Source: a virus. From it: DNA of 28,814 nucleotides. The stretch lies in IMG/VR virus record IMGVR_UViG_3300047319_000981, positions 1 to 28,814 of that record. One strand, given 5' to 3'. Both the position numbers and the translations under genes were made by a program. The notes under the pieces are model-generated. The model worked only from the letters and a program-made list of their open reading frames with translations. It was not told where the DNA came from and ran no database searches. Positions 23,469-27,691 of the stretch are shown here, piece by piece (position 1 is the stretch's first letter; every line of letters begins with the position of its first letter).

Positions 23469-23798
23469 CTAGTCCTCCTCCGACATGTGCAAGAGCGCCC
23501 CGAGACCGGCCGCCTTCTGCGCCTCGACAGGCCCCAGGAGGCCGCCACGCTCATGCCAGCGCAGTAGCGCCGCATCGTCGCCACGGCACGGCGAGGGGGC
23601 GTCGTTGTAGAGAAACAGCGCCCATGAGCGCATCGCGGCCGAGTTGTCCGCGTCTGCCGCAGCGAACGCGCCGAGCAGGTCATTCTTCAGCACGGCGCGC
23701 AGGAACGAACCGAGGAGCGCCGGATGTGGCAAGCCGCGCTCGATCCAAAGCCGCATTGCATCGCGCATGTGCGCCGGCAGCCGCTCTAGGCCCCGCAT
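23469..23798 (-). CDS. Conserved phage hypothetical (leftward operon)
   Basis: This 109-aa protein starts at a TGATG overlap with the upstream stop and ends two bases before the next ATG. The pattern RxGLPHPALLGSFLRAVLKNDLLGAFAAADxDNSAAMRSWALFLYNDAPSP is a widely recurring phage/prophage motif of unknown function (xPxGxFLxAVLxNDLxxAxxxADxxN...FLYNxAP). It is nearly all helical and has no enzymatic residues that I can assign. Its position in the early operon suggests a role in replication/recombination or host takeover. Confidence 0.7.
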   Translation of the reverse strand: MRGLERLPAHMRDAMRLWIERGLPHPALLGSFLRAVLKNDLLGAFAAADADNSAAMRSWALFLYNDAPSPCRGDDAALLRWHERGGLLGPVEAQKAAGLGALLHMSEED

Positions 23799-24094
23799 CA
23801 CGCGGCCCCTTTCTGGTCGAGCAAAGCGCCAAGCGTCGGGGCGCCCCAGATCGCGCCGCGCACGTACCCGTCGGTGCGCCAGAACATGACAGCGTGCTCC
23901 CGGCCATCGACGACGCACACGATCCGCTCGTGACCATCACCGAGACCACAGACCTGCACGACCCGCAGTGCGCGACCATCGCCGGTCGGGTCCGGGACGA
24001 TGTCGCCGATGGTGATGACGCGACCCGCCCAGCTGCATCGGGGGCATGGCGCGGGACGCAACGCCCCGCACGTGGCGCAGCGGACGGCGCTCAT
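23798..24094 (-). CDS. Small zinc-ribbon protein (leftward operon)
   Basis: This 98-aa protein carries Cys6-x2-Cys9 and Cys17-x2-Cys20 at the N-terminus, a compact four-cysteine zinc ribbon. A beta-rich domain follows (RVITIGDIVPDPTGDGRALRV, HAVMFWRTDGYVRGAIWG). It is coupled at both ends (ATGA upstream, TGATG downstream). Function is unknown; regulation or nucleic-acid binding is a guess from the ribbon. Confidence 0.6.
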   Translation of the reverse strand: MSAVRCATCGALRPAPCPRCSWAGRVITIGDIVPDPTGDGRALRVVQVCGLGDGHERIVCVVDGREHAVMFWRTDGYVRGAIWGAPTLGALLDQKGAA

Positions 24095-24198
24095 CGATTC
24101 GGCCTCCGGCTCGCGTAGCGGTGCGAGCGGTCACGGCCGTTGCTGTTGGCGGGCCGGATGGCCGCGACGGGGACCAGGAGCAGCGTCGTTGCGTTCAT
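24091..24198 (-). CDS. Tiny first gene of the leftward early operon
   Basis: This 35-aa frame (begins MNATTLLLVPVAAIRPANSN, then a basic tail GRDRSHRYASRRPNR) ends in an ATGA overlap with the zinc-ribbon gene. Its ATG is placed exactly 6 nt after the -10 hexamer of the early promoter and no Shine-Dalgarno is present, so it is a candidate leaderless leader peptide or small protein. The hydrophobic start with a basic end might make it membrane-active, but it may only couple translation of the operon. Function unknown. Confidence 0.5.
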   Translation of the reverse strand: MNATTLLLVPVAAIRPANSNGRDRSHRYASRRPNR

Positions 24199-24204
24199 GA
24201 GATA

Positions 24205-24233
24205 GTGATAGCGATCGCAATCACAGTCGTCAA
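24205..24233 (-). promoter_or_regulatory. Leftward early promoter with repressor operator
   Basis: Read on the minus strand: TTGACG (24233-24228), a 17-base spacer, TATCAC (24210-24205), 6 bases, then the ATG at 24198. The -35 matches 5 of 6 consensus bases and the -10 4 of 6. The 20-bp operator GTGATTGCGATCGCTATCAC (24224-24205) covers the last 14 spacer bases and the entire -10. It is a near-perfect palindrome with one mismatched base pair. The same motif (17 of 20) lies in the rightward promoter, so one repressor probably controls both. Confidence 0.75.
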
Positions 24234-24274
24234 GAAGAAATCGATAGGCACCCCAATCGGTGGCTACGGGCCTT

Positions 24275-24562
24275 TCACTTGCACCGAATAAGCATGTGGC
24301 CGTTGTACGTGGGCGTAACGACCGTGGTGCTCGCCCAACGGTTGGAATTGGTGGAGACGGACGTGCCCGAGTGCCCGCCCTGGTCCGCGACCTCGTAGCC
24401 GTGGGGGCACCTGTCTGCGGCCTCCTCGTAGCAGTTCGATTGGCTGCGTCGACACTCGACGGAGTACCAGTGCATGGTGCCGTCCGGGCCTCGGATCTGC
24501 TCCGAAGAGGCCGGCTCGCATGCGGCGGTCACCATGACGAACAGGGCGGCAATTCGTCTCAT
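24275..24562 (-). CDS. Lysogenic lipoprotein, candidate superinfection-exclusion factor
   Basis: This 95-aa protein has a basic start, a short hydrophobic segment and a VTAAC lipobox-like cleavage site at residues 11-15. The mature part has four further Cys (VEC, SNC, DRC, IRC), so two disulfides are possible, and a glycine-rich loop (GGHSGTSVSTNSN). It begins at an ATGA overlap with the repressor stop and so is co-expressed with the repressor in a lysogen. That arrangement is characteristic of lysogenic conversion genes. Exclusion of related phages is inferred from context. Lipoproteins of bacterial origin with similar CxxxxxNCYEEA patterns exist, so a host-derived gene is also possible. Confidence 0.7.
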   Translation of the reverse strand: MRRIAALFVMVTAACEPASSEQIRGPDGTMHWYSVECRRSQSNCYEEAADRCPHGYEVADQGGHSGTSVSTNSNRWASTTVVTPTYNGHMLIRCK

Positions 24563-25005
24563 TTGCGAATCTTTCTGACCGTGCTGCGTGCATGGCCTGA
24601 ACCTTCTTTTATCGCTAAAATCTCGCGGTGAAGCTCGGTGATGCCCCGCTCCACGTTTGCCATGCGGTCCAGCGACGCCGCGACAGGGTTCGCCGTTTCG
24701 AGGCCCAAGAGCTGGTCTATCGATTCCCCGGTGTAGAGCCGCAGTGCAAGGAGCGCCTCCAGGCCAACCCCCACGCCGGGGCGCCGGTTCACGATTGCGG
24801 AAATGTGGGCCTGGGAAATCCCCAGCCCTTCCCGCGCGGCGCGGCGCTGGTTGCCCTTCGGATGGCGCTCATCGGCGAAGTCGCGCTTCAGGACCTCGGC
24901 AAGCTTCTCCGCCAGGTGCTCCAGACAGTCTCGCTGGAGTCTCTCCACAGTCGCCCTTGCCATGCTCGTGAGGCTATCGGGAGAATTGAACAGGGTTGCG
25001 TTCAT
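24559..25005 (-). CDS. XRE-family phage repressor (CI-like, without peptidase domain)
   Basis: This 148-aa protein has an N-terminal helix (residues 15-45) and a lambda-repressor-like HTH in residues 52-101: NQRRAAREGLGISQAHISAI and LEALLALRLYTGESIDQLLG. A C-terminal helix (SLDRMANVERGITELHREIL) could dimerise. There is no S24/LexA-type cleavage domain, so induction would not follow the RecA self-cleavage route. It is divergent from a Cro-like gene, and its likely operators overlie the -10 of both early promoters. The ATG at 25005 is used; the ATG at 24963 is a shorter alternative. Confidence 0.75.
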   Translation of the reverse strand: MNATLFNSPDSLTSMARATVERLQRDCLEHLAEKLAEVLKRDFADERHPKGNQRRAAREGLGISQAHISAIVNRRPGVGVGLEALLALRLYTGESIDQLLGLETANPVAASLDRMANVERGITELHREILAIKEGSGHARSTVRKIRK

Positions 25006-25011
25006 GGGTAC

Positions 25012-25046
25012 TTGACCCAGGCGCCCATGATTGCTATCGCTTTCAC
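25012..25046 (+). promoter_or_regulatory. Rightward early promoter with repressor operator
   Basis: TTGACC (25012-25017), 17 bases, TATCGC (25035-25040), 6 bases, then the ATG at 25047. The operator ATGATTGCTATCGCTTTCAC (25027-25046) overlaps the -10 and matches 17 of 20 bases of the leftward operator. The repressor would block cro-xis-int transcription here, and the lack of a Shine-Dalgarno with +1 expected at the ATG suggests a leaderless mRNA. The repressor promoter itself was not identified. Confidence 0.7.
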
Positions 25047-25322
25047 ATGGCAGCAGCAGAAAAGATACGTGCCTGGCGGGAGGCCTCGGGGCTTTCCCAG
25101 CGGGCAGCGGCGGAGCAGGCGTCGATGTCGCAGGCCGCGTGGTGCGAGTACGAGACCGGGGCCATGACCAACCCCGCCGCCGACATCGTCCAGGCCTTCG
25201 ACAGGCTCACGGCGGGGACGGTGCACCACATCACTCTCGGCGACTGGCAGGCCAGGCCAGGGCCGCGTCGCGCGAAGCGGCCGAGCGGCAAGCAACGACG
25301 GGCCCATGGGGATGGACGATGA
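25047..25322 (+). CDS. Cro-like XRE regulator
   Basis: This 91-aa protein has a compact HTH in residues 4-58 (AEKIRAWREASGLSQRAAAE, then MSQAAWCEYETGAMTNPAAD) and a basic C-terminal tail (PRRAKRPSGKQRR). It lies divergently to the CI-like repressor and is the first gene of the rightward operon. Its position and size suit a Cro-like lytic-switch protein, with the tail possibly strengthening DNA contacts. The ATG at 25047 is chosen because the promoter -10 lies just upstream; the longer upstream frame would cross the promoter. It ends in an ATGA overlap. Confidence 0.7.
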   Translation: MAAAEKIRAWREASGLSQRAAAEQASMSQAAWCEYETGAMTNPAADIVQAFDRLTAGTVHHITLGDWQARPGPRRAKRPSGKQRRAHGDGR

Positions 25323-25509: not shown

Positions 25510-25880
25510 GCGAGCTCGAACGCACGATGACCGCGGCCGACGTGATGCAGGTCCTGCAGTGCTCGCGCACCCACGCCTACGAGCTGCTGTCGCAAATCCC
25601 CGCGACGAAGAAGATTGGCGGCCTGCTCCGCATCCGTCTCCGCGACTTCTGGGCCTGGTACGAAAAAGGATCCTCCCCATGCGCCTCTACCAACGAAAGA
25701 AAGCCAACGGCGAGCGCGTCTGGTGGGCGTCCTGGACCGACCGCGGGCGGACGCTCCGCCGCTCTACGCGCTGCTCGACGCGGGCAGCCGCAGACCTCAT
25801 CGTCGGGCGCTGGGAGCGAGAGCGAATCGATCCCGTATACGCAGCCGCGAACGAAGCGACGCTCGGTGGCGAATGGTTGA
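25506..25880 (+). CDS. xis: Excisionase-like HTH protein overlapping int
   Basis: This is a 124-aa frame starting at a GTG that overlaps the previous stop. Residues 9-53 are a winged HTH of the excisionase/MerR-like type (MTAADVMQVLQCSRTHAYEL, then LRIRLRDFWAWYEKG), the usual size for Xis. The rest (from about residue 59) lies over the start of int in another frame and has the composition of an out-of-frame extension, so the functional protein may be only the first ~60 residues. It would bend att DNA with integrase to favour excision. A 202-base overlap with int is large for phage xis/int pairs. Confidence 0.7.
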   Translation: MSELERTMTAADVMQVLQCSRTHAYELLSQIPATKKIGGLLRIRLRDFWAWYEKGSSPCASTNERKPTASASGGRPGPTAGGRSAALRAARRGQPQTSSSGAGSESESIPYTQPRTKRRSVANG

Positions 25881-26689
25881 CATTCATTGCGGAGTGCAAG
25901 GCGGACAAGCTCGCGGAAGGCACGCTCACCATGTACCGGCAAAAGGCCGGCAACCTGATGCGCATCCTCGGCGACGAGACCCGGCTGGCGGCACTCGACG
26001 CCGCGCAGGTGGGCCACTTCGTTTCGGTACGCCGCGAGGAAGGCGCGGCCGACTCGACCATTTACAAGGAATGGATCACGCTCCGCGGCATCCTGTCGAG
26101 CGCGCGCCATCGCCGCAGGTTCGCGCTCGATCCGGCCATCCTGAAGCCGCCGCGCCTTGTCCCGAACTACATCCCCCGCGAGCGCTGGCTGTCACGGGAG
26201 GAGGCGGCGGCATTGCTCGGCAAGCTCTCCCCTTCCCGTCGCGAGGTCGTGGCGTTCGTCATCGGGACAGGGGCACGTCGGCGCGAATGGAACCGAGCTA
26301 TCCCCGGCGACATCGACCGCAAGGCCTGGACGGTGCACCTGCATGGCACCAAGACCGATGCGAGCGACCGGATCATTCCGGTGCCCAGCCACTTTCGGCG
26401 CTACCTCGCCAAGCTCGAGCCCCCCTTCCGGCCATGGGGCAACGCCCGGCGAGACCTGGCCCTCGCCTGCAAGGACCTGGGCATCAAGCCGGTGACCTGG
26501 AACGACTTGCGGCGGACGTTCGCCAGCCAGCTCGTGGAGGACGGGGTCGCCCCCCACATCGTGGCGAAGCTGCTTGGCCACAAGAGCACCGCGATGGTCG
26601 ACCGCGTCTACAACAAGGCCCGAATGCTCAAGCTCGGAGAGCAGCTGGAAGCGCAGATCAAGGTTCGGAAGCCGAAGAAAAAACGATGA
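25679..26689 (+). CDS. int: Tyrosine-recombinase integrase
   Basis: This 336-aa protein starts at 25679 after an AAGGATCC-type ribosome-binding site. The N-terminal arm-binding part (MRLYQRKKANGERVWWASW) is followed by a core-binding helical domain (about 55-150) and the catalytic domain. Visible catalytic residues are Arg200 (GTGAR), Lys225 (HGTKT), Arg278 (NDLRRTFAS), His301 (LLGHKS) and Tyr311 (VDRVYNKA). The usual His of the HxxR box is Asn275, a common variant. It would recombine attP with a tRNA-Lys gene. The gene ends at an ATGA overlap; attP lies about 0.9 kb downstream. Confidence 0.9.
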   Translation: MRLYQRKKANGERVWWASWTDRGRTLRRSTRCSTRAAADLIVGRWERERIDPVYAAANEATLGGEWLTFIAECKADKLAEGTLTMYRQKAGNLMRILGDETRLAALDAAQVGHFVSVRREEGAADSTIYKEWITLRGILSSARHRRRFALDPAILKPPRLVPNYIPRERWLSREEAAALLGKLSPSRREVVAFVIGTGARRREWNRAIPGDIDRKAWTVHLHGTKTDASDRIIPVPSHFRRYLAKLEPPFRPWGNARRDLALACKDLGIKPVTWNDLRRTFASQLVEDGVAPHIVAKLLGHKSTAMVDRVYNKARMLKLGEQLEAQIKVRKPKKKR

Positions 26690-27582: not shown

Positions 27583-27691
27583 CATCGGGAAAACATCGAA
27601 AACGCCGTGGGCCCAGCGGGACTTGAACCCGCGACCTACGGATTAAAAGGCCCCGCATCGGAGAGGCATTTCGCAGCGTGTTTTCCCGATG
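27583..27691. repeat. 13-bp inverted repeat flanking the att core
   Basis: CATCGGGAAAACA (27583-27595) and its exact complement TGTTTTCCCGATG (27679-27691) flank the tRNA-like core almost symmetrically. Outside the core they may bind integrase, a bending factor or Xis. A random perfect 13-bp pair at this spacing is unlikely, but its function is not known. Confidence 0.55.
27608..27649 (-). other. attP core: 3' half of a tRNA-Lys(UUU) gene
   Basis: Read on the minus strand this 42-base segment equals tRNA positions 32 to 73. It comprises an anticodon loop with TTT, the stem TCCGT, variable AGGTC, T-arm GCGGG-ttcaagt-CCCGC, acceptor TGGGCCC and discriminator A. The 5' half (D-arm, other acceptor strand) is absent upstream, and no CCA follows, so it is not a functional tRNA gene. 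Phages that integrate in tRNA genes carry such 3' halves so the target tRNA is restored. Together with flanking arm repeats this is very likely attP. The amino-acid identity depends on the partial anticodon loop. Confidence 0.85.

Follow-up and report, generated by a model that had tools for sequence, protein, structure and literature searches.

Genes at the switch locus

The window is the whole stretch of DNA analysed here, a viral record of 28,814 bases with a G+C content of 65%. Two divergent HTH genes define the locus. The presumed prophage repressor is encoded at 24559–25005 on the minus strand and shows a weak HTH_26 match. The Cro-like HTH protein (Pfam HTH_31, E 1e-9) is encoded at 25047–25322 on the plus strand, from a predicted leaderless start. 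The two genes are only 41 bp apart, a short intergenic region. A tyrosine integrase is encoded at 25559–26689 on the plus strand, and the same region contains an excisionase-like HTH_17 ORF. To the left, a 35-codon leader ORF (24091–24198, minus strand) also has a predicted leaderless start; its ATG, after correction of the position, begins at 24198. Its stop overlaps the ATG (24094) of the next gene in an ATGA arrangement. This second left gene (23798–24094, minus strand) encodes a CxxC-rich protein of 98 aa and carries a Shine-Dalgarno sequence of −9.5 kcal/mol. The locus thus combines what marks a CI/Cro-type switch, that is, a divergent HTH pair, early promoters overlaid on either side by a repeated operator, and a linked integrase. 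Judged from its sequence, it is the HTH repressor/Cro lysis–lysogeny switch of a temperate phage beside the integrase, with DNA binding and opposite action of the two proteins predicted.

A small lipoprotein-like ORF (24275–24562, minus strand) overlaps the repressor stop, again as ATGA. ORFs of this kind also lie beside the repressor at L030 3433–3771, L033 2938–3162, L051 4715–5080 and L057 489–893, and among these only that of L030 is a detectable homologue of the window ORF (E 1.6e-11). The ORF may have a role in lysogenic conversion or superinfection exclusion. Downstream of the integrase, at 27606–27652, lies an apparent 3′ half of a tRNA-Lys gene (anticodon UUU as read), which the window has in common with L030, L033 and L034 at 78–91%. 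This segment is likely the attP core. It was rejected as a pointer to the host; it matches phages and plasmids of many phyla and therefore names no host. Genome scans for a host found none; a Methylococcaceae MAG gave a single weak match to the integrase.

Promoters abutting the early start codons

The left early promoter reads TTGACG-N17-TATCAC-N6-ATG, with the −35 hexamer at 24228–24233 and the −10-like hexamer at 24205–24210 on the minus strand. The right early promoter reads TTGACC-N17-TATCGC-N6-ATG, with the hexamers at 25012–25017 and 25035–25040 on the plus strand. Both strings are present as the preliminary description had given them, and the N17 and N6 distances are identical. The pattern TTGACN-N17-TATCNC occurs in the window only at these two places, 24205–24233 (−) and 25012–25040 (+), and not once in 100 dinucleotide shuffles. 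The first T of each −10 lies 12 nt 5′ of the ATG. When every ATG on both strands is scored for a −35/−10 pair with a spacer of 16–18 and a gap of 4–9, the two highest of the 883 scores fall on the left start (rank 1) and the Cro start (rank 2). The repressor start comes 168th and has no promoter of the leaderless type. The promoter weights were the analyst's choice; a further scan relied on a strict pattern and on simple counts of matches. Among 11,999 starts in 10 records, the strict pattern gave 40 matches; 18 of these score at least 8, and 10 of the 18 are switch starts.

Also as described before, a Shine-Dalgarno sequence is missing at both starts, where the anti-SD duplex energies are +0.3 and +0.6 kcal/mol. 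The random background has a mean of −3.1 and the 19 listed, uncurated gene starts of the window a mean of −5.65, with 11 of the 19 at −5 or stronger. Since such sequences are strong at many window genes, the second left gene included, the phage does use Shine-Dalgarno initiation, but not at these two starts.

Start codons were also compared in a control with no fixed gap, in which gaps of 0–70 were allowed and the best promoter was taken for each start. The best promoter has a gap of 5–9 in 11 of 13 left and Cro starts, against 180 of 2436 ATGs generally; the figure for repressor starts is 1 of 6. The right-hand gene of G002 is part of the ATG ranking, with a poor score, and was left out of this control. 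The two misses are the cro start of G010 and that of the window, whose gap-6 promoter comes second-best (7.7) to TTGCCA-N18-GAGAAT at gap 60 (8.1). The latter is the sole promoter listed by a generic sigma-70 scan, which missed the two gap-6 promoters because both −10 hexamers end in C and lack the conserved last T. These points would suit an arrangement in which the promoters exist and are repressed, yet each message has a short or long leader, starting farther upstream (for Cro, at the gap-60 promoter), with the ATGs read independently of Shine-Dalgarno sequences. We consider this unlikely. The gap-60 match lies inside the repressor gene and away from the operator, it is the gap-6 promoters that carry the operator pair, and the 11 of 13 starts at short gaps argue in the same direction.

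Two further observations concern the codons that follow the starts. The first 11 nt, ATGAACGCAAC, are identical in the left leader ORF (24188–24199) and the repressor gene (24995–25006), and the repressor opens with them although its start ranks so low. In a post hoc count, the second codon is AAC in 6 of 15 switch starts from seven phages, versus 6 of 176 long ORFs; at this early position it may assist leaderless initiation.

Relatives were reached through the integrase as query, which led to L029 and L030, L032–L034 and L050–L054; L045–L049 duplicate the contigs L029, L030, L032, L033 and L034. With the repressor, Cro and portal as queries, no useful switch relatives were found, the portal giving only an 11-kb fragment (L004) that lacks the operator. 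The exonuclease relatives L005–L025 have no switch protein in common with the window. Apart from the repressor homologue encoded by L029 (3365–3793, E 1.4e-11) and the lipoprotein homologue of L030, phmmer at E 0.1 found no match of the window's switch proteins in the relatives; they are too diverged. HTH domains are nevertheless present at the corresponding places.

In 10 records, window included, promoters at the leaderless position are found on both sides in five (the window, G003, G005, G006 and G008) and on one side in two (G009 and, weakly, G002). One record (G010) is negative, and two (G007 and G011, seen in part only) show no divergent HTH pair in the parts covered. G004 was left unscored as a near-duplicate of G005 with the same integrase match. 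G003 has TTGACG-N17-TATGCG-N6-ATG at cro and TTGCGC-N16-TAATAT-N8-ATG on the left (ranks 1 and 4 of 770). In G005, the left start (TTGACA-N17-CATAGT-N9-ATG), cro (TTGACA-N17-CAAGCT-N7-ATG) and the repressor (TTGTCG-N16-TACCGT-N8-ATG) rank 1, 2 and 4 of 834. The left and cro starts of G006, TTGCCA-N17-TATGCT-N7-ATG and TTGACA-N17-CACTCT-N8-ATG, rank 1 and 2 of 402. Because the promoter was already known when the left start was chosen in G003, G005 and G006, more weight falls on G008 and G009, which were ranked blind. The left start (TTGACA-N16-AATAAT-N6-ATG) and cro start (TTGACA-N18-TACTAG-N5-ATG) of G008 are the two best of 428 locus starts and also of 797 starts in 20 kb. The cro start of G009, TTGACA-N16-AATACT-N6-GTG, is first of 751; a second early side was sought in this record and none was found. 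G002 fits poorly, with TTGCGG-N17-TAATGT-N6-ATG on the left and TTGCAG-N17-TAGCTT-N6-ATG at the repressor reaching only 39 of 1139, and the gene for 246 aa that it reads rightward showing no fit (429 of 1139). The divergent HTH pair of G010 has a cro gene with the Shine-Dalgarno sequence GAGGAGG (−11.8) and no leaderless promoter. The earlier proposal of leaderless starts is thus supported in its geometry, by the two top ranks in the window and the recurrence in six other records, and the 5′ end at the ATG stays a prediction.

Outside its switch, G008 has a strong promoter of the leaderless type, TTGACA-N18-CATACT-N6-GTG, at a 68-aa ORF (16234, minus strand). The 246-aa protein that G002 carries where Cro is expected (L029 3932–4672) has weak P63C and pRha matches.

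A putative shared operator at both promoters

Each early promoter carries a 20-bp operator. The left one, GTGATTGCGATCGCTATCAC, lies at 24205–24224 (read on the minus strand), and the right one, ATGATTGCTATCGCTTTCAC, at 25027–25046, ending directly before the ATG (25047). The two agree at 17 of 20 positions and differ at 3, as had been noted. Within 3 mismatches, no further copy was found in the whole window except the reverse complement of the first site itself (2 mismatches). The left operator is self-complementary at 18 of 20 positions, the right one at 12 of 20. The difference in register that had been pointed out is real, for the −10 occupies operator positions 15–20 on the left and 9–14 on the right, and the operators span −26 to −7 and −20 to −1 relative to the ATG, respectively. 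A search of viral contigs with the operator pattern gave three loci, all of which lack the switch proteins.

For five phages, the 60 nt preceding the left start were compared with the 60 nt preceding the right start, and the best ungapped match was scored; G002 and G009 were left out because only one side of each could be placed. Within a phage, left and right match at 14.0 in the window and at 18.0, 18.5, 17.5 and 14.0 in the other four, whereas across phages the match is 5–10 in all 20 comparisons, suggesting an operator peculiar to each of the five phages and present at both of its promoters. The position of the operator relative to the ATG varies among the phages. In G005, G006 and G008 the distance from operator to ATG is the same on the left and the right within 2 nt, so the register difference is no general feature and looks like a peculiarity of the window phage. 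A meaning for the register shift was dropped, most relatives being without it, and so was operator looping at a fixed phase, the operator spacing varying between phages. In G003 a third operator copy lies beside the lipoprotein gene (L030 3377–3399, 3418–3440 and 4451–4473).

The window −10s are embedded in the operator, and in G005, G006 and G008 the −35 falls within the shared sequence. The geometry might then have arisen secondarily as the operator evolved, a 20-bp palindrome close to a start codon holding TTGAC- and TAT-like words by chance, with no leaderless design. This is very improbable; the operators differ among the five phages in sequence and in position, but the distances between −35, −10 and ATG vary by a few nucleotides only (spacer 16–18, gap 5–9).

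The identity of the binder is a separate matter. The shared site might be the target of a host factor, or of the Cro-like protein alone, and the 24559–25005 protein would then not be the repressor of these promoters. The Pfam HTH match of this protein is below the cut-off (E 0.0088), and its AlphaFold model, with a mean pLDDT of 45, is unusable. We nevertheless regard such a binder as somewhat unlikely, since the homologue at the same place in G002 passes the HTH_3 cut-off, and phage-specific operators are expected of a phage-encoded binder. One control for both promoters, as first proposed, gains support from operator pairs that match within phages and not across them; repression, and the 24559–25005 protein as binder, are carried forward as predictions.

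Proposed working and relation to known systems

We consider it quite probable that the locus is a two-operator repressor switch in which both lytic operons open with leaderless messages, the 5′ ends, the binder and repression itself being predicted from the arrangement of sites. The repressor (24559–25005), the Cro-like protein (25047–25322) or both would bind one 20-bp operator at each early promoter, and with the operator over the −10, binding would shut both lytic operons together. As the promoters abut the first start codon, transcription would begin at the A of the ATG, and the leader-free messages would be translated without a Shine-Dalgarno sequence. On the left, the leaderless 35-codon ORF would hand ribosomes to the second gene, which has one. 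A further-reaching and quite doubtful reading is that in this phage group leaderless translation forms part of the lytic side on both early operons, so that the decision depends on ribosome state, the 35-codon ORF serving as a bacterial uORF that controls the gene behind it. Conditions favouring 70S or leaderless initiation would then boost the early lytic genes after derepression.

If the two-operator leaderless switch is confirmed, leaderless translation would be a design element of the switch, and selection would maintain promoters directly against the start codon in both early operons even as phages swap operator specificity. Matched leaderless and Shine-Dalgarno-led (G010) switches would be available for asking why. 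The leaderless geometry may also serve as a simple sequence signature for switches in unannotated phages, because the blind ranking picked both starts of G008 and the Cro start of G009. A prior report of leaderless messages on both early lytic operons was not found in the open-licence library searched.

Lambda-like switches have three operators per side. The window differs in having one site per promoter within 3 mismatches. In bacteria, leaderless genes are recognisable by a −10-like signal some 12 nt ahead of the start (PMC3160421), and −10-adjacent leaderless genes are described as common in Deinococcus-Thermus (PMC12340547). The two window starts resemble the leaderless genes of Actinobacteria and Deinococcus-Thermus in this signal and in the missing Shine-Dalgarno sequence. 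The surveys concern cellular genes with −10s of the form TANNNT (PMC3160421, PMC12340547), whereas TATCAC and TATCGC do not have this form and lie inside operators; several of the relatives' hexamers do end in T. According to a review, a small leaderless ORF can control the gene that follows it, and translation is enhanced by CA repeats placed after the start codon (PMC9031893).

Among phages, the prophage regulator PaaR2 is reported to be translated leaderless, like lambda cI (PMC8630535). The window shares with lambda cI/PRM and PaaR2 a divergent HTH pair and phage-type HTH regulators on leaderless messages, which are predicted in our case. For lambda cI and PaaR2, the leaderless message is that of the repressor, on the lysogenic side (PMC8630535), and in the window it would be that of the early lytic genes. 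The closest comparison is PY54, an N15-like telomere phage with divergent repressor and cro genes, for which RACE showed that cI and cro each have one leaderless message, starting at the AUG (PMC4488713). According to that work, PY54 Cro has a single site (OR3) and no self-repression (PMC4488713), whereas the window has one operator at each of two lytic promoters. Unlike the leaderless cI of PY54 (PMC4488713), the window repressor start lacks a promoter of this kind. With leaderless cI and cro already mapped in PY54, the window represents a variant with predicted leaderless starts on both lytic operons.
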